A DNA stretch of 64,000 nt, from contig DYIY01000007.1 of the NCBI GenBank assembly GCA_020723405.1, positions 62,001 to 126,000 of the forward strand. The letters run 5' to 3'. This document shows, piece by piece, positions 38,685 to 62,066 of this stretch (position 1 is its first letter; every line of letters starts with the position of its first letter). The stretch comes from Thiobacillus denitrificans. GTDB taxonomy: Bacteria; Pseudomonadota; Gammaproteobacteria; Burkholderiales; Thiobacillaceae. The notes under the pieces are model-generated. The model did not search any database, was not told the DNA's origin, and saw only the letters and a program-made list of their open reading frames with translations. Made by a program: the position numbers and the translations under genes.

Positions 38685-40511
38685 TCAATACTGATTTTCC
38701 TCAAGCACCGGGCGGCCGAAATACCACCCCTGGCCCAGGTGGACCCCCATGTCGCGCAGAATGCGGGCGGTTTCCTCGTCCTCGATGCACTCGGCCACGG
38801 TGATGATGTTTTCCCGCCGGGCGAAGCCGGCCAGGCTTTCGACGATGGCGGCGATCTTCCGCTGTTGCTTCATGTTGGCCACCATCCAGCCCTCGATCTT
38901 GAGATAGCTGATGGGCAGACGGGCCAGATAGAGGAAGGAGGAATAGCCGCTGCCGAAGTCGTCCAGAGCCAGGCGGAAGCCGAAATCCAGCAGGGGCTTC
39001 AGGTCGGCCTCCAGGGTCTCCAGGTTGCTGAGGAACTGGCGTTCGGTGATCTCGAAGACGATGGGCTTCACCGGCCCCAGATCCAGGTTGCAGGACTGGC
39101 AATAGCTCATGGCGTTGGCCAGCATCTCCTCCACCAGATCCCGGCGGGCCAGGAACTGGGGGGACAGGTTGACGAAGTGGGCGAAATCTTTGCCCACCTT
39201 GCCCTGGCTGAGATTGGCAGTGCAGCGGGCCATGGCCTGGCGGGTCACGTAGCGGTCGATTTCCGACATGAGGCCCAGACCTTCCGCCACCTCGACGAAC
39301 TCCCCGGCACTCACCAGGCGGCCGTCGGGCAGGGCCACCCGGGCCAGGGATTCGTCGGCTACCGGCTGGCCCGTCTGCAGATCCACGATCACCTGGGAGG
39401 CCACCCGGACCCGGGCATCCCGCAGGGCCCGCTTGACTACCTGGACGGGCCAGTGGGTGGCCGTGGCATCGAAGGCCTCCACCCGGTCCCGGCCGTTGCT
39501 CTTGGCCTGGTAGAGACAAGAATCGGCCAGTTCCAAGGCCGGGTGATAGTCGGCGTCGTCCCGCTCCGGCAGGCCGATGCCGGCCGACAGGGTGATGGCG
39601 ATGTTGCCCACCTGGGTGGCGATGGGCTGGGCCTTCACGTGGCCGGTGAGACGCTGCATCACGTAGGAAGCCTCCTGAACGTCGGCATCGCGCAGGAAGA
39701 TGAGGAACTCCTCCCCGCCCCAGCGGGCCAGCCAGTCGTCATCGCGCAGGCCCGCCTCCAGGCGGCGGGATACCACCTTGAGCACCTGGTCCCCCACGGC
39801 GTGGCCGTAGCGGTCGTTGACCCGTTTGAAATGGTCGATGTCCACCAGGGCCACGGCGAAGGACTCGCCATGGCGCCGGGCCCGGGCCATTTCCTCGTGC
39901 AGGCGGCCTTCCGCCGCCCGGCGGTTGAGCAGACCGGTGAGGGCATCGGTGAGGGCGTGGCGTTCCAACAGCAGACGCTGGCGCACCTGGTAGAGGTGGT
40001 GGCCCAGCCAGCCGGCCACCAGTTCCAGGTAGGCCAGGTCCGCCTCGGCGAAGCCCTCGCCCTCCGGAGGACAGCGGGCCAGGCCGCCGAGCACGCCGGC
40101 CAGGGCGTCGCCGCTCCACACCGGCACCCCGGCATAGAACACCATGCCCGTTTCCCGCCTGAGCACCTGGCCGTCGCCTACCGGATCCCGGGCCAGATCG
40201 TCCAGCACCAGGGGTTCCTGGGAAGCCAGGGCCAGCCCCCGCAGGGCTTCCTCCACGGCCCCGTCCAGGGCGGCCGGATCGCCGTCCAAGCGGACATGGC
40301 GGAAACGCACCCCGGCGATGTCGTCCCACTCGGCCAGGAAAAGCAGGTTGAGCCCCAGGCTGCGGGCCGCCTCGTCCATGATGGCGGTGAAGCGGGCCTC
40401 GTCGTCCAGGTCGTGGCGGGTGGCCTGGCGCAGCAGCCGGTTCAGCCGGCGACCGTGGCGGAACAATTCGTCCGGGTTTTCCCCGGCAGTCACGGCGGCA
40501 TCCAGGGGCAC
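38685..40511 (-). CDS. Cytosolic GAF-GGDEF-EAL protein
   Basis: 608 residues with GTG 40511 as start (GGGGA eight bases upstream; the GTG at 40526 is an alternative). Residues about 25-160 are GAF-like, then a GGDEF domain with GGEEF (about 264) and an RxxD site (RDDD). The C-terminal EAL-type domain keeps DDFGSGYSS and EITERQ but its signature reads ADESLAR where EALLR is expected, so c-di-GMP hydrolysis is doubtful. No TM helix is seen. It overlaps the 5' neighbour by one base (TAGTG). Confidence 0.88.
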   Translation of the reverse strand: MPLDAAVTAGENPDELFRHGRRLNRLLRQATRHDLDDEARFTAIMDEAARSLGLNLLFLAEWDDIAGVRFRHVRLDGDPAALDGAVEEALRGLALASQEPLVLDDLARDPVGDGQVLRRETGMVFYAGVPVWSGDALAGVLGGLARCPPEGEGFAEADLAYLELVAGWLGHHLYQVRQRLLLERHALTDALTGLLNRRAAEGRLHEEMARARRHGESFAVALVDIDHFKRVNDRYGHAVGDQVLKVVSRRLEAGLRDDDWLARWGGEEFLIFLRDADVQEASYVMQRLTGHVKAQPIATQVGNIAITLSAGIGLPERDDADYHPALELADSCLYQAKSNGRDRVEAFDATATHWPVQVVKRALRDARVRVASQVIVDLQTGQPVADESLARVALPDGRLVSAGEFVEVAEGLGLMSEIDRYVTRQAMARCTANLSQGKVGKDFAHFVNLSPQFLARRDLVEEMLANAMSYCQSCNLDLGPVKPIVFEITERQFLSNLETLEADLKPLLDFGFRLALDDFGSGYSSFLYLARLPISYLKIEGWMVANMKQQRKIAAIVESLAGFARRENIITVAECIEDEETARILRDMGVHLGQGWYFGRPVLEENQY

Positions 40512-41674
40512 TAGTCGGTTCCCCACTGGGCCGTGGCGATGGGGCTGCCCAGATCGGCTGCCACCAGGCGGCGGCGCACGGCCAGCAACCTGTCGATGAG
40601 GGCCGGTTCGGCCTGGCCGTAGGCATCCGCATCCGGCACCCGCTTCACCACCACGCCCAGCAACTCGGTGATGGCGTTGCCGATGGAATTCTGGCTGATG
40701 GTGACGATGAGCTTGCCCGCGTCGTTGCGGTAGATGAGTTGCTTGAAGGCCGGCTGCCAGCGGATGGAGTTGGCGTACTTGGCGTCCTTGATGCAGCGGT
40801 CCCGGACCATCTTGGCGGTCTTCAGCAGGTCGTTGTTGAACAACAGCTTGTTCTCCACCAGGTCGGGGAAGTGGATGTCCCGGGCCATGGGGGCGTTGCG
40901 GGTGGACACCTGGCCGAAGAAGGTCCGGTAGAAGTCGATGAAGCCCTTGAGAATCGTGTCGTACTCCTTCCAGAAACGCACTTCCTTCAGGGATTCGGCG
41001 CCGCCGGTCACTTCCCAGGAAGGCAGGCCCTGGGGATAGCCGGTGATGGCGATCTTGCAGGAGCCGGGAACGCAGGGACGCAGGATCTCCAGGTCCAGTT
41101 CGTCGAAGAAGGCCCGGTACACGTCGCGCATGTAAGCCTGGAACAGGGAATGCTGGCCCCCGTCGGTGAGGTTGGGGTTGCTGGCGTCGGCGATGGGGGC
41201 ATCGCGCAACTGGGCCTTGTCGAAGACGATGAAGTGGTTATGCAGCATGCGGATGCTGGGCACCCCGGGGGACGTCAGGGGCCAGGTGGCGTCCAGGCTG
41301 GCCTCGCCGGCCAGCACCAGATGCCGTTCCGGGTCTGGATACTGTTCCAGCATGTACTCGTAGAGGATCTCGTTCATCCGGTTCCACACGTGCTTCACCC
41401 CCTCCGGCACCTGGGTGCGCCGAACCGGCCGGCCCAGAGGGTCCAGGATGGACTGGGAGGTGTTGTAGATGATGGACGTGTCGAACTCGTTGCTGTGGCC
41501 CAGAGCCTTGCGGTAGAGCAGCAGCCCTTCCGGATTCTGCAGGAGGCCGTTGTTGTGGACCAGGTCGTTCAGGTTCTCGGTGCTGTTGAAGAACTCGTTG
41601 GGCTTCATGCCCTCGGGCACTTCCAGGGGGATCTGGCGGAAGGGGGTGACGATTTCGCGGGGACCGGACTGCAT
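40511..41674 (-). CDS. Unrecognised conserved-looking protein beside hydrogenase operon
   Basis: 387 residues, soluble, no signal peptide. The start ATG at 41674 precedes MQSGPREIVTPFRQI; the upstream open stretch is low-complexity. Segments rich in aromatic and conserved-looking residues (SIRMLHNHFIVFDKA, LRPCVPGSCKIAITGYPQGL, WKEYDTILKGFIDFYRTFFG) show a folded enzyme-like protein. I recognise no family. It is transcribed in the same direction as the hydrogenase operon (110 bases after the protease gene) and is immediately followed by a GGDEF/EAL gene. Confidence 0.7.
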   Translation of the reverse strand: MQSGPREIVTPFRQIPLEVPEGMKPNEFFNSTENLNDLVHNNGLLQNPEGLLLYRKALGHSNEFDTSIIYNTSQSILDPLGRPVRRTQVPEGVKHVWNRMNEILYEYMLEQYPDPERHLVLAGEASLDATWPLTSPGVPSIRMLHNHFIVFDKAQLRDAPIADASNPNLTDGGQHSLFQAYMRDVYRAFFDELDLEILRPCVPGSCKIAITGYPQGLPSWEVTGGAESLKEVRFWKEYDTILKGFIDFYRTFFGQVSTRNAPMARDIHFPDLVENKLLFNNDLLKTAKMVRDRCIKDAKYANSIRWQPAFKQLIYRNDAGKLIVTISQNSIGNAITELLGVVVKRVPDADAYGQAEPALIDRLLAVRRRLVAADLGSPIATAQWGTD

Positions 41675-41784: not shown

Positions 41785-42243
41785 TCACCCCTCCAGCAGG
41801 GCCAGCACCCGGGCCGTGGCGCCGGAAATCGCCTCTGCCACCGGTGTGCTCAGGGTTTCCCGGAAGGCGAAATCCGGCAGGGCTTCCACCCCCACCACCC
41901 GGATCTCCTCCGGCAGTTCCAGGCCCAGGGTCCGGCCCAGGTCCAGGGCGGCGGTCAGGCCCAGGTCGTGGGCCGAAGCGGTATGCCGGGCGCCGGCCAA
42001 GTCGGCGGCCGGCACGTCATGCAGGGTGCCCGGCGCGGCGCCGGTGGTCATGGCATCGACGATGATGGCCCGCCGGTAGCCGGCCAGGTGTTCCACCAGG
42101 GCCAGCCCCCCCAGGGACAGGCAGGCCACGTCCACGTCCCTGCCGGCCAGGGCGGGCCTCAGGCCTTCGGCCACCCGCCAGCCCACGCCGTCGTCCCCCA
42201 GGATGGGGTTGCCCAGGCCCACCACCAGGGTGGTCGCGTTCAT
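41785..42243 (-). CDS. Hydrogenase maturation endopeptidase
   Basis: 152 residues of the HycI/HoxW family. VVGLGNPILGDDGVGWRVAE is the signature with the metal-sensing Asp/Glu, DAMTTGAAPGTL gives the second Asp, and the conserved His is in ASAHDLGL. It removes the C-terminal peptide of the large subunit after nickel insertion. It overlaps the large-subunit gene by four bases, and that gene indeed encodes a cleavable extension. Confidence 0.9.
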   Translation of the reverse strand: MNATTLVVGLGNPILGDDGVGWRVAEGLRPALAGRDVDVACLSLGGLALVEHLAGYRRAIIVDAMTTGAAPGTLHDVPAADLAGARHTASAHDLGLTAALDLGRTLGLELPEEIRVVGVEALPDFAFRETLSTPVAEAISGATARVLALLEG

Positions 42244-43697
42244 CCCCGCAGCACTTCCAGCAGGGCGCCGCTGGCGTCGTGGAGGCTCACCTGGAGGGGA
42301 ATCTTGCCGGGCAGGGCATGGGTGGCGCAGCCCAGGCAGGGGTCGTAGGCCCGGTAGGCCATCTCGATGCGGTTGAGCAGGCCTTCGGTGACCACCGTGC
42401 CGGCCTGGATCAGGCTCTTCGCCGCCTTCTGGATGGACAGGCTCATGGCGGCGTTGTTGTTGGTGGTTCCCACCACCAGGTTGACCAGGGTGAGCAGACC
42501 CTGCCCGTCGGTCCGGTAGTGGTGGGTCAGGGTGCCCCGGGGAGCTTCCACGATGCCCACCCCTTCTCCGGGGGGATTGCTGGCCACGACCCGTACTTCC
42601 GGCGAGGTGATCTGGGGATCCCGGGCCAGTTGCAACCAGCGTTCAGCGGCATAGAGCAGTTCGATGAGGCGGGCCCAGTGGATGGCCAGGCGGCTGTGGG
42701 CCGGCTTGCCCAGGGTGGCGACGAACTTTTCATACTCCGCCTGGGCCAGGGGGGTGGCCATGCCTTCGGAGACGTTCAGGCGGGCCAGGGGGGTGGCCAT
42801 GTAGATGCCCGAATCGGCCCCGTCGGTGAAGCCCTTCCAGCCCACCTTCTTGAGATAGGGGAACTTCAGGTAACTCCAGGGTTCCACCCGTTCGGCGATC
42901 CATTCCCGGTAGTCGGCGGGGGCGTAGAGGGCGTGTTCCCGGCCGTCCGGACCCACCACCCGCACCCGGCCGTCGTAGAAGTTGACCCGCAGGTCATCGT
43001 CCACCAGGCCCATGTAATAGGTTCGATGGGTATAGGCCTCGCCCAGAATCATGTCCCGGTATTCCGGGTTGCCCAGCACCAGATCGTGGAAGGCTTGCAG
43101 GGCAAACTGGCCGAACTCCACCGCCCAGCGGCCCATGGCCTCGATCTCCTTGCGCTCGCTTTCCACCAGGGCCTTGGTCTGCCCCCCGGGCACGGCAGTG
43201 CAGGGATGGACCTTGCGGCCGCCGATGATCTCCACGGTGCGATGGCCGAATCTGCGCGCCTGGATCACCTTGCCGCCGATCTCCAGGCCCAGCTTGTGGA
43301 TGACCCCCAGGATGTTGCGCTCGGCCACCGGAGTCTCCGGGCCCATGATGAAATCCGGCCCCCCCAGGATGAAGAAGTGGGTGGTGTGGTCGGCAAAGAA
43401 GAAGGCGGAATAGAGCAGTTCCCGCAGCTTGCGGGCGGCGGGGGGGATGCTCAGGCCGTAGACCGCGTCGGCAGCCTTGGCTGCGGCCATGTGGTGGGCC
43501 TCGGGACAGACGCCGCAGATGCGGTTGGTGAGGGTGGGCATCTCCTCCACCGGGCGGCCCAGGCAGAAGCTCTCGAAGCCGCGCAGTTCCGGCACCTGAA
43601 GATAGGCGTTGGCCACCTCGCCGGCCTCGTCCAGGAAGATCTCGATCTTGCCGTGGCCTTCCAGGCGGGTCAGGGGGTCGATGCTGATGCGTTCCAT
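42240..43697 (-). CDS. mvhA: [NiFe] hydrogenase large subunit, MvhA type
   Basis: 485 residues. L1 is RICGVCPEAHH (Cys61, Cys64) and L2 is DPCLGCATH (Cys454, Cys457), the four Ni ligands. Twenty-five residues follow His460 (ALPGKIPLQ...), the peptide expected to be cut off by the protease next door. The N-terminus is ERISIDPLTRLEGHGKIEI. With a small subunit, MvhD and HdrABC in the same operon this is a group-3c (F420-non-reducing, Hdr-linked) hydrogenase. It would supply electrons from H2 to MvhD and HdrA. Confidence 0.93.
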   Translation of the reverse strand: MERISIDPLTRLEGHGKIEIFLDEAGEVANAYLQVPELRGFESFCLGRPVEEMPTLTNRICGVCPEAHHMAAAKAADAVYGLSIPPAARKLRELLYSAFFFADHTTHFFILGGPDFIMGPETPVAERNILGVIHKLGLEIGGKVIQARRFGHRTVEIIGGRKVHPCTAVPGGQTKALVESERKEIEAMGRWAVEFGQFALQAFHDLVLGNPEYRDMILGEAYTHRTYYMGLVDDDLRVNFYDGRVRVVGPDGREHALYAPADYREWIAERVEPWSYLKFPYLKKVGWKGFTDGADSGIYMATPLARLNVSEGMATPLAQAEYEKFVATLGKPAHSRLAIHWARLIELLYAAERWLQLARDPQITSPEVRVVASNPPGEGVGIVEAPRGTLTHHYRTDGQGLLTLVNLVVGTTNNNAAMSLSIQKAAKSLIQAGTVVTEGLLNRIEMAYRAYDPCLGCATHALPGKIPLQVSLHDASGALLEVLRG

Positions 43698-43700
43698 GGC

Positions 43701-44690
43701 TTACTCCTGTTCCGCCAGGGCCTGGCGGTTGGCCCGCAGCAGGGAATGGGCCAGGCTGAAGCGGTAGAAGCTGCCGGCCGGGTCCACCAGGCCGTCCAGC
43801 ACCCGGTCGATGGCCTCCGGCTCCTTTTCGTCCACCACCGAGGCGATGGCGGTCAGCAGCCGGGCGCCCTGGTCCACCACCCCCGGAGCGGCGCCGTAGC
43901 AGCCGATGCAGGGGGCACCCACGGCGGGACAGCGGGACCGGCAGCCGCTGCGGGTGGCCGGACCGGCGCAGACCAGGCCCTGCTCCAGCAGGCACAGGTC
44001 GGTGGCCAGTGGCGGCAGGTCCTGGATGCGGGCCAGCCGGTGGATGGCCTTCACGTCCCGCTTGCGGGCGCACTCGTCGCACACGGTGGAATCACCGGCC
44101 CCCAGCACCGCCCCCCGGGGGGGCAGCTCGGCCTCCCCCTTCACCACCCGGATGAGCAGATCGAGTATGGCGGCGATCTGGTGGGATTCCGGCGGGCAGC
44201 CGGGCACGTGGTAATCCACCGCCACCACCTGGTCCAGGGTGCGCACCACGGCTTGCAGGGGCGGCAGGGTCAGGGTGCCTTCGGGGACCTGGCTCACGGC
44301 CTGGGGGCGCAGATGGTCCGGGTTGTCCGTGCTGGGCGATTCGAAGGCCCGCGCGAAGATCTGTTCCCGGGGGCTCAGGTTGGCCAGCCCCGGAATGCAG
44401 CCCTCGTTGGCACAGGAACCGAAGGCCACCAGGATCTGCGACTTGCGCCGCAGCAGCCGGGCCATGTGTTCGTTCTCGTCGGTGCGGATGCTGCCGTTGA
44501 ACAGGGTGACCAGGAGGGACCCGTCCGCCAGGGCCTCCACGTCCTTGTATTTGGCGTCCATGGCCGCCGGCCAGAAGGCCACGTCGAAGTGGGCGTCCAG
44601 GTCCAGCACCTTCTCGTCGGTGTTGAGCACCGCGATCTCGCAGCCGCCGCAGGCAGCGGCCCAGTACATGGCGAATTGGGGTTTGCTCAT
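43701..44690 (-). CDS. mvhG: [NiFe] hydrogenase small subunit, MvhG type
   Basis: 329 residues, without the Tat signal of uptake hydrogenases. The proximal cluster motif is CGGCE at residue about 14, with GSCANEG and the later Cys in PGCPP. The C-terminal third has extra Cys (VCDECARKRDVK, then CRSRCPAVGAPCIGCYG) for the medial and distal clusters. Such cytosolic small subunits pair with group-3 large subunits. The start ATG at 44690 is 3 bases after GGGGTGG. Confidence 0.92.
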   Translation of the reverse strand: MSKPQFAMYWAAACGGCEIAVLNTDEKVLDLDAHFDVAFWPAAMDAKYKDVEALADGSLLVTLFNGSIRTDENEHMARLLRRKSQILVAFGSCANEGCIPGLANLSPREQIFARAFESPSTDNPDHLRPQAVSQVPEGTLTLPPLQAVVRTLDQVVAVDYHVPGCPPESHQIAAILDLLIRVVKGEAELPPRGAVLGAGDSTVCDECARKRDVKAIHRLARIQDLPPLATDLCLLEQGLVCAGPATRSGCRSRCPAVGAPCIGCYGAAPGVVDQGARLLTAIASVVDEKEPEAIDRVLDGLVDPAGSFYRFSLAHSLLRANRQALAEQE

Positions 44691-44733
44691 GGGGTGGCCT
44701 TATGGAGCTGTGGCAGAGATGGGAAGCGGGGCG

Positions 44734-44828
44734 AAATCCCCCCCGTCCCCCCTTTTGCAAAGGGGGGAACCCTCAAACCCGCAGCACGGTAACTCCCCCC
44801 TTTGGAAAAGGGGGGCTGGGGGGAGGGT
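44734..44828. repeat. Two copies of the G/C-run palindromic repeat
   Basis: Copies at 44734-44771 and 44791-44828, each a C-run, a TTTGCAAAA or TTTGGAAAA core and a G-run, fill most of the 148-base gap between mvhD and mvhG. The stem-forming capacity suggests an mRNA structure or a mobile repeat. A related copy is in yejF. Confidence 0.75.
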
Positions 44829-44838
44829 TGCAGGTGCG

Positions 44839-45312
44839 TCATGCAGCCACCTCGTCTGCATGGGCGCGTCCCTCCGGCACCGGCCGGGCCGGCCAGTTCA
44901 GGGGCCCCAGGGCCTTCACCTGGTCCACCATGGCGGCGATCTCCCCGGCGAACTTCGCCCCTTCGGCGGCGCTGGCCCAGGCCAGGCGCACCCGCGCCGG
45001 CTCGATGCCGAACTGGGCCAGGGTCTTCTGCAACAGCCGGTGCCGGCGCAGGGCCTTGTAGTTCTGCTCCAGGTAATGGCACTCGCCGGGATGGCAGCCG
45101 GCGATGAGCACCCCGTCGGCGCCTTCTGACAGGGCCTTGAGCACCAGGGTGGGGTCGATGCGCCCCGAGCACATGACCCGGATCAGGCGCACGTTGGGGG
45201 GGTACTTGATGCGTGCCGTGCCGGCCAGGTCGGCGGCCCGGTAGGAGCACCAGTTGCAGGTGAAGCCGATGATGACGGGCTCGAAGGGGGTTGGCGTGGA
45301 TGGGGTGCTCAT
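44839..45312 (-). CDS. mvhD: MvhD-type electron-transfer subunit
   Basis: 157 residues. FTCNWCSYRAADLAGTARI and VMCSGRIDPTLVLKALSEGADGVLI, then GCHPGECHYLEQN, are the MvhD/FlpD signature holding a [2Fe-2S] cluster. In the methanogen complex it links MvhAG to HdrA. The ATG at 45312 overlaps the hdrA stop by four bases. The C-terminal tail (RPVPEGRAHADEVAA) is variable. Confidence 0.94.
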   Translation of the reverse strand: MSTPSTPTPFEPVIIGFTCNWCSYRAADLAGTARIKYPPNVRLIRVMCSGRIDPTLVLKALSEGADGVLIAGCHPGECHYLEQNYKALRRHRLLQKTLAQFGIEPARVRLAWASAAEGAKFAGEIAAMVDQVKALGPLNWPARPVPEGRAHADEVAA

Positions 45313-47372
45313 GCGGCCTCCGGTTCCCGTTGCACGTCCCGCAGCAGGCCCTCGATCTGGGCGAACAACTGCGCGTCGCTGAAGCCGGTGCCCTGGATGG
45401 CGCCCGCCGGGCAGGCGGCCACGCAGGTGCCGCAACCCTGGCAGAGGGCGGCGTTGATCTCGCTGACCTGGCGTTCCGCGACGAAGGAGATGGCGTTGAA
45501 GGGGCACAGGCCGTTGCAGATGCGGCAGCCGGAACACTGGGCCTCCAGCACGCTGGCCCGCACCGGTTCCAGGGCCAGTTCCCCCTGGCGGATGTAGTTC
45601 AGCACCCGGGCTGCTGCCGCCGAGCCCTGGGAGACGCTGGCGGGAATGTCCTTGGGCCCGGCGGCGCAGCCGGCGATGAACACCCCCTCGGTCATGGTGG
45701 CGATGGGGTCCATCTTGGCGTGCTTCTCGATGAACCAGCCGCTGGTGGAACAGGCGATGCCGAAGGTCTTGCCCACTGCCGCGCTGTCCCGGCGGGGCTC
45801 CAGGCCCGCCGACAGCACCACCATGTCCACCGGGATGCGCCGTTGCAGGCCCGCCAGGGTGTCTTCCACCTGGACGTAGAGGGTGCCCTCCACCTCGCGG
45901 CCGGCTTCGGCGGGGTCGAAGGGCACGTCGGTGATTTCCGCCACCTTGCCGCGCACGAAGTGGACGCCGTCGTCCAGCACCCGCTGGTAGAACTCGTCGT
46001 ATTCCTTGCCCGGGGTGCGGATGTCGATGTAGAAGTTGTACACCTCGGCGCCTGTGCGCTCCTTCACCAGGTGGGCCAGCTTCAGGCTCTGCATGCAGCA
46101 GATGGCCGAGCAGTGGCGGTTGTAGTGGCGGTCCCGGCTGCCCACGCAATGCACGATGCCGACGCGCTTGGGCGCGTTCTGGCCGTCCCGCAGCACCACC
46201 CGGCCCCCCGTGGGCCCGGCGGCGTTGCACATGCGCTCCAGCTCCAGGTTGGTGAAGACGTTGGCCAGGCGGCCGTAGCCGTACTGGGGGATGCGCCGGG
46301 CGTCGAACAGGTCCCAGCCGGTGGCCAGGATGATGTTGCCCACCCGCAGGGTGACCCGCTCCTCCGTCTGGTCGAACTTGATGGAGTTGGGCACCGTGGG
46401 GCAGAACTTCTCGCAGGCCTTGCAGCCGCCCCCGGCCCCGCCTTTCCCGCCGACGTAGTAGGTGCAGGTGTCCGGGTCCAGCACCGGCAGGTTGGGCACC
46501 GCCTGGGCGAAGGGCCAGTAGATGGCCTTGCGGTAGCCGATGCCGGCCTCGAACTTGTCGTCCACCACCAGGACGGGGCACTTCTCCACGCAGATGCCGC
46601 AGCCGGTGCAGATGTCCTCGTCCACGTAGCGGGGCTTCTTCCGCACGGTGACCGTGTAGCTGCCCACGAAGCCTTCCACCTTCTCCACCTCGCTCCAGGT
46701 GTAGAGATGGATCTTCGGGTGGGCGCCCGCCGCCGCCATCTTGGGGGTGAGGATGCAGGCGGCGCAGTCCAGGGTGGGGAAGGTCTTGTCGAACTGGGCC
46801 ATGTGGCCGCCCAGGGAGGCCTCCCGCTCCACCAGCACCACGTCGTAGCCGGCCTCGGCCACCTCCAGGGCCGCCTGGATGCCGGCGATGCCGCCGCCCA
46901 CCACCAGGGTCTGGGCGTCGATGGGCACCTTGATGGCTTCCAGGGGGTCGTTCTGCAGCACCCGTTCCACCGTGCCGCTGACGATGGCCTTGGCCTTGGC
47001 CGTGGCCGCCGCTTTGTCGGCATGCACCCAGGCCACGTGCTCGCGGATGGAGGCCATCTCGGACAGGTAGGGGTTCACCCCGGAACGTTCGCACACGCCC
47101 CGGAAGGTCTTCTCGTGCAGGTGGGGGGAACAGGCGGCCACCACCACCCGGGTGAGGCGCTGCTCGTGGATGTCCTGTTCGATCAGTTCCTGGCCGGCCA
47201 CGGAACACATGAAGGTGTAGTCCCGGGCCAGCACCACGCCCCGGTCCTTCAGGTCATCGGCGGCGAAGCGGGCCACGGATTCCACGTCCACCACCCCGGC
47301 GATGTTGCTGCCGCAGTGGCAGACGTAGACGCCGATGCGTTCTTGGCCTTCGGGTTGCTTGTCAGATGCCAT
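45309..47372 (-). CDS. hdrA: Heterodisulfide reductase subunit A
   Basis: 687 residues. The N-terminal domain begins IGVYVCHCGSNIAG, FAD-binding GGGIAG follows (about 157), and the Fe-S motif LDCAACILTPKM lies after it. Two 4Fe-4S sets come next (DICTGCGICVEKCP and GGCKACEKFCP). The FAD domain continues (HCVGSRD..., GVFIAGCAAGPKDI), then a C-terminal 2x[4Fe-4S] ferredoxin (CSGCRICNGLCP, CQGCGTCVAACP). HdrA is the electron-bifurcating flavoprotein in methanogens. The length is near the archaeal norm. Confidence 0.94.
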   Translation of the reverse strand: MASDKQPEGQERIGVYVCHCGSNIAGVVDVESVARFAADDLKDRGVVLARDYTFMCSVAGQELIEQDIHEQRLTRVVVAACSPHLHEKTFRGVCERSGVNPYLSEMASIREHVAWVHADKAAATAKAKAIVSGTVERVLQNDPLEAIKVPIDAQTLVVGGGIAGIQAALEVAEAGYDVVLVEREASLGGHMAQFDKTFPTLDCAACILTPKMAAAGAHPKIHLYTWSEVEKVEGFVGSYTVTVRKKPRYVDEDICTGCGICVEKCPVLVVDDKFEAGIGYRKAIYWPFAQAVPNLPVLDPDTCTYYVGGKGGAGGGCKACEKFCPTVPNSIKFDQTEERVTLRVGNIILATGWDLFDARRIPQYGYGRLANVFTNLELERMCNAAGPTGGRVVLRDGQNAPKRVGIVHCVGSRDRHYNRHCSAICCMQSLKLAHLVKERTGAEVYNFYIDIRTPGKEYDEFYQRVLDDGVHFVRGKVAEITDVPFDPAEAGREVEGTLYVQVEDTLAGLQRRIPVDMVVLSAGLEPRRDSAAVGKTFGIACSTSGWFIEKHAKMDPIATMTEGVFIAGCAAGPKDIPASVSQGSAAAARVLNYIRQGELALEPVRASVLEAQCSGCRICNGLCPFNAISFVAERQVSEINAALCQGCGTCVAACPAGAIQGTGFSDAQLFAQIEGLLRDVQREPEAA

Positions 47373-47401
47373 ATCGAACCTCTTTCATCCTGCGCCGGGG
47401 A

Positions 47402-47440
47402 CCCCCTCCCCTTTCACTCACCCTTTGCAAAAGGGGGGTG
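47402..47440. repeat. G/C-run palindromic repeat between hdrA and hdrB
   Basis: Another copy of the C-run/TTTGCAAAA/G-run element, lying in the 100-base gap before hdrA. It may form a hairpin in the operon mRNA. Confidence 0.65.
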
Positions 47441-47472
47441 ACCTGTGGGAATGTCATGGCACAACCCATGCC

Positions 47473-48438
47473 TCACTCCATGCCCGGCATGGGCAGCGCA
47501 TCCCCCGGCTTGGGCCGGCGCTTGCGCTTGGTCTCGGCCACCTTGGGGGCCTCGGCCTGGATGCGGGCCAGGGCCGGCGCGGCGGACACGAACTCCTTGC
47601 CGATACCCAGGGCCTTGGCCGGCTTGCCGAAGGCCAGGCCCATCAACTGGGTGAAATACAGCACCGGCATCCGGTAGTCGCTGTGGAAGTGCCGGTTCAT
47701 CTCCACCTGGTAGGCGTCCAGGTTCAACTGGCACATGGGGCACAGGGTCACCACCAGGTCGGCCCCCGCCTGCTGGGCCCCGTGGACCAACCGGCGGATC
47801 AGCCCGTAGGCCACCTCCGGGCCGATCACCGACATGTGGCCGCCGCAGCACTGGGTCTTCAGGGCCCAGTCCACCGGCTCGGCGCCCAGGACGGCCAGGA
47901 GCTTGTCCATGGCGGTGGGATGCTCGTGGTCGTCCCAGCGGCCGTCGTAGTCCGGGCGCACCACCTGGCAGCCGTAGTAGGCCGCCACCTTGAGGCCGTG
48001 CAGGGGCTTCACCACCCGGGCCTTCACCGCTTCATAGCCGATGTCGTGGCAGACCAGGTCCAGCAGATGGCGCACCTCCAGGCTGCCCGGCCGGTATTCC
48101 AGGCCGCCGGCCGCCAGGGCCTCGTTGACCGTGGCCTTCAGGTGGGCATCCTCGCCCATCCGGGCGTCGGTCTTGGCCAGGTTCAGGTAGCAGGCGCTGC
48201 ATCCGGCGGCCAGCACCCGGGTGTCTCCGGCCTGGTCCTGGGCCAGGGCCAGGTTGCGGCCCACCAGGGCATGGGCCGCCACCCGGTACACCGACATGTA
48301 CTCGGTGGCGCCGCAGCAGTTCCAGTCCTCCACCTCCCGGAGTTCCAGGCCGATGTCCTCGCGGATCGCCTGGAGTGAATCCAGGTAGGGCCGGGCATTC
48401 TTCTGCATGGCGCAGCCGGGGTAGAACAGCGCTTTCAT
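47473..48438 (-). CDS. hdrB: Heterodisulfide reductase subunit B
   Basis: 321 residues. Two CCG domains: DWNCCGATE with GCSACYLN, and KTQCCGGHM with LCPMCQLN, that hold the noncubane [4Fe-4S] cluster pair where disulfide cleavage takes place in HdrB. It starts MKALFYPGCAMQKNARPYLD. The C-terminal tail is basic (KRKRRPKPG). The start overlaps the hdrC stop by four bases. The disulfide or other substrate in a bacterium is unknown. Confidence 0.94.
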   Translation of the reverse strand: MKALFYPGCAMQKNARPYLDSLQAIREDIGLELREVEDWNCCGATEYMSVYRVAAHALVGRNLALAQDQAGDTRVLAAGCSACYLNLAKTDARMGEDAHLKATVNEALAAGGLEYRPGSLEVRHLLDLVCHDIGYEAVKARVVKPLHGLKVAAYYGCQVVRPDYDGRWDDHEHPTAMDKLLAVLGAEPVDWALKTQCCGGHMSVIGPEVAYGLIRRLVHGAQQAGADLVVTLCPMCQLNLDAYQVEMNRHFHSDYRMPVLYFTQLMGLAFGKPAKALGIGKEFVSAAPALARIQAEAPKVAETKRKRRPKPGDALPMPGME

Positions 48439-49022
48439 GATGGGCTCTCCAGCGCCTTGGCCTTGTCGAGGATGGCGGTCAGTTGCGCCAGGTTGTCGAT
48501 CCGCTGGGGCAGCAGATCCATGCGCCCGCGCTTCAACATGCCCAGGCCCAGGGGCGCCATGCCCGCCAGGCCGATGGGGTGGTGGCGCAGGTTGAAACGG
48601 GTGGCCAGCCCCAGTTCGAAGCTGCGCCCGTATTTCTCCACGTAGTCCACGAAGGTCTCGGAGAAGTCCGGCAGGGACGCGTCGTGGAACAGCCCGGCCT
48701 CGATGGCCATGGACTTCAGGGTGTACATCAGGTCGGTGATGCGGATGTCCTGGGGACAGCGCACCGTGCAGTAGTAGCAGGAGACGCAGTACCAGGGGGC
48801 ATTGCTGGCCAGCACCGCATCCCGCTCCCCGGCCCGGATCAGGGCGAAGAGCCGGCGCGGGGTGTGGTCCATTTCCGCCCCCGAGGGGCAGGAGCCGCCG
48901 CAGGTGCCGCACTGGATGCAATGGTCCAGGCGGTTGTCCCCCGGCGTGGCGGCCATGACCTGGCCCAGGAAGCCCGCCGCGCCAGCAAAGGCTGGAGTCG
49001 ATGAATGGGATGCCGCAGTCAC
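48435..49022 (-). CDS. hdrC: Heterodisulfide reductase subunit C
   Basis: 195 residues. Two [4Fe-4S] motifs CIQCGTCGGSCPSG and CVSCYYCTVRCPQ pass electrons between HdrA and HdrB. The rest is helical. It is the first gene of the operon hdrC-hdrB-hdrA-mvhD-mvhG-mvhA-protease. The N-terminal 20 residues are Ser/Ala-rich, and an internal start at VMAATPG is possible. Confidence 0.93.
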   Translation of the reverse strand: MTAASHSSTPAFAGAAGFLGQVMAATPGDNRLDHCIQCGTCGGSCPSGAEMDHTPRRLFALIRAGERDAVLASNAPWYCVSCYYCTVRCPQDIRITDLMYTLKSMAIEAGLFHDASLPDFSETFVDYVEKYGRSFELGLATRFNLRHHPIGLAGMAPLGLGMLKRGRMDLLPQRIDNLAQLTAILDKAKALESPS

Positions 49023-51341: not shown

Positions 51342-51689
51342 TCAGGGTGGCTCGCCTGGGAGGATTTCATTGTCTTCGTGCAGCCATGCTGGGATATCTC
51401 GCTGGCTATGCAGTACACGCCAGACGTCGATGTGGCTGGGCAGATCGACGTAGAAGATGAGATACGGATAGCGTTGCAAGGGCCAGAAACGCAAGCCAGG
51501 CAGATTCAGTTCATGGGCGAAGCGAGGAGAGCCAATTGCCGGTTGGCTGGCAATTTGGAGATAGGCATGTTCCAGCGCCTCGATGAAGCCGAGCGCGACC
51601 TGCTTGCCCGCTTCGTTCAAGTAGTAATCGACCGCATCCTCGATATCCCGGTTGGCTAATTCGCGCGGGAGGATAGGCTTGGGCGTCAC
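51342..51689 (-). CDS. parE: RelE/ParE-family toxin
   Basis: 115 residues. DIEDAVDYYLNEAGKQVALGFIEAL is the helical hairpin, LNLPGLRFWPLQRYPYLIFY the beta-core and VWRVLHSQRDIP the C-terminal strand that is typical of ParE/RelE toxins. The GTG start overlaps the antitoxin stop (GTGA). Targets are gyrase (ParE) or ribosomes (RelE); which one cannot be told here. Confidence 0.85.
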   Translation of the reverse strand: MTPKPILPRELANRDIEDAVDYYLNEAGKQVALGFIEALEHAYLQIASQPAIGSPRFAHELNLPGLRFWPLQRYPYLIFYVDLPSHIDVWRVLHSQRDIPAWLHEDNEILPGEPP

Positions 51690-51925
51690 CCTGCAGCGCG
51701 TCGATGGACCCGATTTCTCAGGTCATCAAAATACGCCTTGTCCACAGGCTTTCCTGGTGCAGACTCAGCGCCCTTCAGCAACAAGCCGCGCAGCCGGGTG
51801 CGGTCCTGATCTTTGCGGATCAGCTCGCGCACATACTCGCTGCTCGTGCCATAGCCGCGCAGGTCCACCTGTTCGTCGACGAACGACTTGAGGGAGTCGG
51901 GAAGGGAGATATTCATTGTGGTCAT
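51686..51925 (-). CDS. parD: ParD-like antitoxin
   Basis: 79 residues. The N-terminal ribbon-helix-helix (MNISLPDSLKSFVDEQVDLRG then TSSEYVRELIRKDQ) is the DNA-binding part. The C-terminal half binds toxin (FDDLRNRVHRRAAG). It is upstream of the toxin and overlaps it by four bases. An operator palindrome lies directly before it, so autoregulation is expected. MTTMNIS: the first or second Met may be the start. Confidence 0.88.
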   Translation of the reverse strand: MTTMNISLPDSLKSFVDEQVDLRGYGTSSEYVRELIRKDQDRTRLRGLLLKGAESAPGKPVDKAYFDDLRNRVHRRAAG

Positions 51926-61901: not shown

Positions 61902-62066
61902 AGCCCCGGCCCGCCCCTTGCGGGTGGGCCGCTTCTCCTGACGCATGCCACCAAGCCGGAGCCCCGGACGGGCTACCGCCCGGGCAAGGGCCGGTTTGAT
62001 CCGCGAACCGGACTGCCCGCCCCCGTGCTGGCGTGCCCCACAGGCCGCACCCGGATGGGCCCCGGC

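Follow-up and report, generated by a model that had tools for sequence, protein, structure and literature searches.

A complete set of genes for an MvhADG-HdrABC hydrogenase/heterodisulfide reductase complex, followed by a gene for a hydrogenase maturation protease, occurs on a betaproteobacterial chromosome in Thiobacillus denitrificans (assembly GCA_020723405.1). The window, meaning the whole 64,000-nucleotide stretch that was analysed, covers positions 62,001 to 126,000 of contig DYIY01000007.1. Within it, hdrC-hdrB-hdrA-mvhD-mvhG-mvhA-protease form seven intact open frames, all on the minus strand, running from 49022 to 41785 (Table 1); the products match chains of solved structures and keep their cluster cysteines. 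A reading of the sequence alone, made without database searches, had described this gene set, and its range of 42240-49022 takes in the six subunits but leaves out the protease gene that it names (41785-42243). Its observation is confirmed here, and its interpretation is partly supported. The operon probably encodes a functional cytoplasmic group 3c MvhADG-HdrABC complex, one that would use H2 to drive bifurcation of electrons to ferredoxin and to a disulfide-type acceptor; assembly, H2 activity and bifurcation are what we infer from the genes. The operon is no unique case, as HdrA of this type is carried by 8 of 117 genomes of the family, and a group 3c hydrogenase with HdrA, although without HdrB and HdrC, has already been described in a betaproteobacterium.

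Searches by phmmer against chains of solved structures returned a methanogen Hdr or Mvh-Hdr chain as the top match for all six subunits, aligned over most of the length, with best E-values ranging from 5.8e-20 for HdrC (5odc_C) to 1.2e-192 for HdrA (8rvu_a). Between these extremes fall HdrB (8rvu_b, 1.8e-47; two PF02754 domains), MvhD (8rvu_F, 1.2e-49; PF02662 at 179 bits), MvhG (9sw2_E, 1e-52) and MvhA (5odc_F, 3.1e-119), the last with a nearly equal second match to a bacterial [NiFe] hydrogenase, 7t2r, at 2.8e-118. Main domains of the operon proteins reach Pfam gathering scores. Pairwise ratios of nonsynonymous to synonymous substitution rates (dN/dS) of 0.11-0.25, from seven gene comparisons against two relatives, show the operon genes to be under purifying selection; together with the range of phmmer E-values, they exclude a chance resemblance of the six subunits.

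Likeness to the methanogen complex (PDB 5odc, 8rvu and 9sw2) extends through the six subunits, the cluster cysteines and the MvhA motifs. The flavin adenine dinucleotide (FAD) and ferredoxin motifs that the sequence-only reading saw in HdrA are intact: 26 cysteines recur in the archaeal chain, and of these 24 are present in 71 of 71 aligned rows and C18 and C20 in 69 of 71. One HdrA cluster motif is spaced CX13CX2CX3C in the window, a longer first spacing than the CX2CX2CX3C of the archaeal row. HdrB has the two CCG stretches reported earlier. Ten CCG-type cysteines, for two non-cubane clusters, recur in the archaeal chain (nine are invariant across 65 rows, and C9 is present in 63), and the AlphaFold model of HdrB (mean predicted local distance difference test score, pLDDT, 89.5) gives template modelling scores of 0.86/0.94 against 5odc_B. 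All 8 HdrC cysteines are shared with 5odc_C. A seeming loss of N-terminal HdrC cysteines in 30 of 66 rows was rejected as a real difference, being most likely the product of start sites set too late by the simple gene caller. MvhG, of the long form at 329 residues, lacks no cysteine of its solved archaeal counterpart, and MvhD has the cysteines of the archaeal chain except for one, which is threonine in the window.

The Ni ligand motifs also proved as described. MvhA has ICGVCPEAH as L1 and AYDPCLGCATH as L2, which fit the ICGxCxxxH and AYDPCccCATH patterns defined for this subunit (PMC6085437; here and below, papers are cited for the portions of their text that were available), and a 25-residue tail follows the last histidine. 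Two HoxH rows, including one from the window genome itself, lack L1 and have AFDPC in place of L2. In a narrowly sampled tree of MvhA sequences the HoxH rows separate with support of 99 and the window protein falls with group 3c, in agreement with the class assigned earlier; the archaeal MvhA branch is very long.

Scores from curated NCBIfam models weigh against this assignment, since all six subunits fall below the cut-offs: VhuA 386.6 of 800 bits, VhuG 173.3 of 450, VhuD 131.7 of 215, HdrA2 794.5 of 1100, HdrB 197.4 of 345 and HdrC (TIGR03290) 86.1 of 160. The Vhu entries are strict models built on archaeal proteins. The HoxH of the same genome, at 411.8 bits, even outscores MvhA against the VhuA model, which therefore cannot separate hydrogenase groups.

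If the complex works as the solved one does (PMC5861303 traces electrons from H2 through MvhA to the FAD of HdrA, and from there to ferredoxin and HdrB), MvhA would oxidise H2, and MvhG and then the [2Fe-2S] cluster of MvhD would pass electrons to the FAD of HdrA. The flavin would split each pair: one electron would reduce ferredoxin at HdrA, and its partner would pass via HdrC to HdrB, whose two non-cubane clusters would reduce a disulfide or other two-electron acceptor. Reduced ferredoxin would be available to pyruvate:ferredoxin oxidoreductase (POR), Rnf and nitrogenase. The methanogen complex uses coenzymes M and B, which are not expected in this organism. A search of the window genome for ComA (PF02679) found none (0 of 1 genome; coenzyme B genes were not searched), so that coenzyme M seems absent and the earlier expectation of an acceptor other than CoM-S-S-CoB stands.

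MvhA of the window type was found in 7 of 23 genomes of the genus, counting the window's, and in one genome (G030) from another genus of the family. Searching 117 family genomes with HdrA gave ten matches at E 1e-100 or better, eight of them 84-100% identical and two at 43%. In a sample of 369 genomes from the class, the close HdrA type occurs in the window genome only, and three others have matches of 43-45%. In a phylum sample of 398 genomes, 38 have VhuD-type matches, six at E 2e-30 or better; the remaining 32 are weak where viewed and mostly inside long frames, as would be expected of QmoB-like proteins, which they presumably are. One named carrier is a Thiobacillus.

All seven genes recur in unchanged order in six related genomes, and in a seventh relative (G005) the operon genes are split across small contigs. 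The operon adjoins a core block (U387, hfq, hflX, hflKC) in the window genome, G015 and G020, while in G007, G019 and G003 block and operon lie on different contigs. In G003 the operon is flanked on one side by a nifJ-type gene and on the other by an ntrB-like gene (ntrB and ntrC being named by eye). The corresponding genes of the window genome lie 337 base pairs apart with no operon between them, an empty site whose flanks match G003 by BLASTN at 80% over 1006 base pairs and 77.5% over 209 base pairs. The seven genes therefore behave as one block. None of 80 plasmid records carried a copy reaching 60% identity.

This distribution bears on two ways in which the operon might mean less than it appears to. 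It could be a recent, unused passenger, or a plain hydrogenase without HdrBC-dependent bifurcation, as the patchy occurrence of its HdrA (8 of 117) and the two intergenic hairpin repeats that interrupt it would allow; the low dN/dS, the intact frames and ligands, and an HdrB tail retained in seven of seven Thiobacillaceae-type rows make this improbable. The other is a binning artefact or contamination from Chloroflexota, the phylum of its nearest outside relatives among the best 80 of 568 matches (below). This is refuted for practical purposes: the operon lies inside a contig of 201,606 bases with G+C content of 0.68-0.70, similar to the remainder of the window, the same operon stands beside genus-wide genes in G015 and G020, and MvhA is 83-88% identical among copies in the family compared with 67-75% to Chloroflexota.

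The nearest outside relatives are not the methanogen operons. A scan of named genomes, with search patterns from an alignment rich in the window's family, gave 568 confirmed matches, and the best 80 comprise 77 from Chloroflexota, two from the window's family and one from Chthonomonadales. To the outside relatives among these 80, MvhA is 67-75% identical, and HdrA is up to 71% identical to Chloroflexota. Archaeal subunits are only 31-57% identical (HdrB lowest, MvhD highest), and archaea were rejected as the nearest source with Chloroflexota subunits far closer. The methanogen likeness drawn by the sequence-only reading thus holds for the subunits and not for the nearest relatives. Chloroflexota (Anaerolineae) operons consist of these seven genes too, and loci of sufficient length mostly agree in gene order (with exceptions and gaps from the simple gene caller); they also have an HdrB tail ending in LPxP. 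They differ in nine HdrBs of a shorter type and in a gene for 148-160 residues directly after the protease gene in 34 loci, not seen in Thiobacillaceae-type loci; four of these products were read, and by eye they have the look of a cyclic-nucleotide-binding-type domain. Three other group 3c loci from Pseudomonadota (L074, L075 and L076) are about 59-60% identical in MvhA and only 37-39% in HdrA. They read MvhG-MvhA-protease-HdrA-MvhD, and neither HdrB nor HdrC was matched in the stretches examined, an arrangement like that of Symbiobacter.

Vertical inheritance within the class is unlikely because the closest relatives are in Chloroflexota and the other Pseudomonadota loci are distant. Patchy presence in the family, a single carrier among the 369 class genomes, differing chromosomal sites and the empty site likewise point to a lateral origin. 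In a 66-row tree of HdrA, HdrB and MvhD the family is nested among Chloroflexota, and it is so again under LG+G4. This nesting is not secure. An approximately unbiased test keeps the alternative (p 0.694), with the constrained tree better by 16.6 log units, and a tree of HdrA, MvhD, MvhG and MvhA (68 rows) places the family beside all 60 Chloroflexota-group rows with support of 86; the Chthonomonadales locus (L090) was grouped with Chloroflexota in the trees. Roots of the MvhA, three-protein and four-protein trees disagree, the archaeal outgroup branch being very long in each, and the direction of transfer does not follow from them. The best explanation of these comparisons is that the operon entered the family laterally from a Chloroflexota-type lineage, or is shared with one.

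HdrB ends in a Lys/Arg-rich C-terminal extension that finishes in LPMP (KRKRRPKPGDALPMPGME) and has no counterpart in the archaeal chain. Among 64 HdrBs longer than 250 residues, the archaeal row being kept apart, an LPxP tail occurs in all 55 whose identity to the HdrB of the window exceeds 50% (LPMP in 53, LPPP in L067, LPLP in L107); it is absent from the nine at 50% or less, and from the archaeal row. Six of the seven Thiobacillaceae-type rows end in LPMP, and L067 in LPPP. The nine shorter HdrBs are all from Chloroflexota. On the HdrA+MvhD+MvhG+MvhA tree, the switch between tailed and short HdrB takes at least seven changes, the same on quick and careful versions, as counted over 62 scored rows, 9 of them short, with five Chloroflexota rows and the outgroup unscored, some branches weak and no shuffle control. 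This suggests that HdrB, with the neighbouring HdrC, has been swapped repeatedly on one conserved core. Residues 301-321 are predicted to be disordered (pLDDT 49-58), and therefore no mechanism can be derived from the model. The tail and the repeated change of type are details new here, with the literature on the HdrB tail not searched. In Chloroflexota loci with a short HdrB (L099, L151 and similar ones), genes resembling response regulators or histidine kinases, along with receiver-like genes, lie immediately upstream of hdrC; this was read from the sequences of two loci, and the genes elsewhere have similar lengths.

Genes that could support such a complex are present, as the sequence-only reading supposed. 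HypD and HypB score above cut-offs on contig C5. Low-potential ferredoxin machinery includes a POR gene adjoining rnfB- and rnfC-type genes on the operon's own contig, a second POR, and nifH. The genome also has two RuBisCO matches and several other [NiFe] hydrogenases, including a HoxH type. Its dsr operon, with dsrA above the NCBIfam cut-off, holds a DsrC with two C-terminal cysteines (ACKIAGLPKPTGCI). On contig C42 (L063, 9835-14934) lies a Qmo-like cluster with two HdrA-like flavoproteins, one having a C-terminal FlpD domain, in which HdrC- and HdrB-like genes stand where the membrane subunit QmoC would be. Set against a link to the operon, nifH, DsrC and POR are the same in carriers and non-carriers of the genus, and across the genomes compared, none of the ferredoxin-user, hydrogenase, RuBisCO, Hyp, Dsr or Qmo-like genes is restricted to carriers. 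POR is present in 22 of 23 genus genomes, the miss being the incomplete carrier G005, and shows no association with carriage. A full-length nifH occurs in 3 of the 7 carriers, with a further fragment in G005, and in 7 of the 16 non-carriers, with a further partial gene in G018; nifH was rejected as a reason for the operon.

For the acceptor of HdrB, a possible although unlikely candidate is the disulfide or trisulfide of DsrC in the Dsr system, reduced as ferredoxin is charged, which would join hydrogen and sulfur metabolism. DsrC-family genes are found in all 23 genus genomes, seven of them in the window genome, the DsrC of its dsr operon keeps both C-terminal cysteines, and DsrC has been proposed as a partner of FlxABCD-HdrABC (PMC5296606). 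Nevertheless DsrC does not tell genus carriers from non-carriers, and only 9 of 30 Chloroflexota-named carriers examined (of 78) have a match, one of them weak, most of these genomes being metagenome-assembled genomes (MAGs) of untold completeness; DsrC therefore cannot be the general substrate. The seven DsrC/TusE-family genes lie on contigs C36, C6, C10, C29 and C27 (L167-L171), and by eye only some have both C-terminal cysteines.

Operation in reverse, with reduced ferredoxin and a thiol oxidised together and H2 released as an anoxic electron sink, is likewise a tentative reading that we consider unlikely. The reaction has been called reversible (PMC6085437), H2 production by Mvh/Hdr has been inferred for Dehalococcoidia MAGs (PMC11650866), and the genome has its pyruvate:ferredoxin oxidoreductases; against it, other hydrogenases are present, the HoxH type among them, and the operon is linked to no gene specific to H2 evolution. 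More speculative still, and rather doubtful, is a scheme in which HdrBC would be an interchangeable acceptor unit attached to a conserved core that bifurcates electrons from H2, and the LPxP tail would dock a dedicated protein disulfide partner, so that in sulfur-oxidising betaproteobacteria the complex would wire H2 to a DsrC-family relay while charging ferredoxin.

Several related systems have been reported. Mvh is described as occurring mainly in archaea and obligate anaerobes (PMC6085437), and mvh and hdr genes are reported from Chloroflexota MAGs (PMC11650866). The betaproteobacterium Candidatus Symbiobacter mobilis has a group 3c hydrogenase with HdrA, lacking HdrB and HdrC, for which a role with NADH was proposed (PMC4053972); both organisms thus combine MvhADG-type genes with HdrA, and only the window operon adds HdrB and HdrC. 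FlxABCD-HdrABC accompanies reductive tricarboxylic acid (rTCA) cycle genes in sulfur oxidisers (PMC6315080) and has in common with the window operon HdrABC and an MvhD, feeding ferredoxin enzymes, but the Flx cluster is without [NiFe] hydrogenase genes. No Flx genes occur between 40511 and 51199 in the window, where mvhA and mvhG stand instead. Clusters of FlxABCD-HdrABC type do occur in the same family, in G023 and G034, where the identity of HdrA to that of the window is only 41-44%. In these two genomes (L205 and L204), and in G780 and G874 of the same class (L206 and L207), HdrA of 41-43% identity, MvhD, HdrB and HdrC are interleaved with oxidoreductase genes that by eye resemble 2-oxoacid:ferredoxin oxidoreductase, fumarate reductase and citrate lyase, an arrangement that resembles the published FlxABCD-HdrABC/rTCA clusters. 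The available text of a study of deep groundwater lists functions of Thiobacillus and mentions group 3c for Methanobacteriaceae alone (PMC12596165). Our literature search, as far as the portions of text available extend, found no paper that describes a full Mvh-Hdr set for Thiobacillus or any other betaproteobacterium.

Within the operon, four-base overlaps join hdrC to hdrB, hdrA to mvhD and mvhA to the protease gene, which is downstream of mvhA in six of six complete relatives; mvhD is a gene of its own, with no fusion to hdrA. Two gaps, of 100 base pairs between hdrB and hdrA and 148 between mvhD and mvhG, hold hairpin-forming or repeat-like sequence, at which transcription might be attenuated or terminated partway through the operon. 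The second has two copies of the hairpin repeat CCCCCTTT...AAAGGGGG; mvhD and mvhG overlap in L068, L070 and L072, unlike in the window. A degenerate copy of the same repeat lies at 47410-47440, in the first gap. The adjoining gene at 40511-41674 was rejected as a member of the operon, being found in 22 of 23 genus genomes and belonging to no Pfam family. At 51342-51916, on the minus strand, two small adjoining genes have by eye the look of a ParE/ParD-type toxin-antitoxin pair.

Table 1. Features of the Mvh-Hdr operon, in window positions
Feature	Position	Strand	Description
hdrC	48435-49022	-	195 residues with GTG start, or 173 with ATG at 48956; two [4Fe-4S] motifs
hdrB	47473-48438	-	321 residues; two CCG domains; basic C-terminal tail KRKRRPKPGDALPMPGME
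hdrA	45309-47372	-	687 residues; FAD domain and ferredoxin domains
mvhD (FlpD)	44839-45312	-	157 residues; [2Fe-2S] protein joining hydrogenase to HdrA
mvhD-mvhG gap	44691-44838		two hairpin repeats CCCCCTTT...AAAGGGGG, at 44748 and 44796
mvhG	43701-44690	-	329 residues; small subunit, three-cluster type
mvhA	42240-43697	-	485 residues; [NiFe] large subunit; 25 residues past last His
hydrogenase maturation protease	41785-42243	-	152 residues; TIGR00072 at 112 bits, cut-off 47

A complete Mvh-Hdr set in a sulfur-oxidiser lineage of facultative type, apparently moved as a seven-gene block, would make the question of what HdrB reduces tractable in a setting without coenzymes M and B. The HdrB tail, and the repeated change of HdrBC in Chloroflexota, mark the part of the enzyme that may hold the answer about the acceptor.

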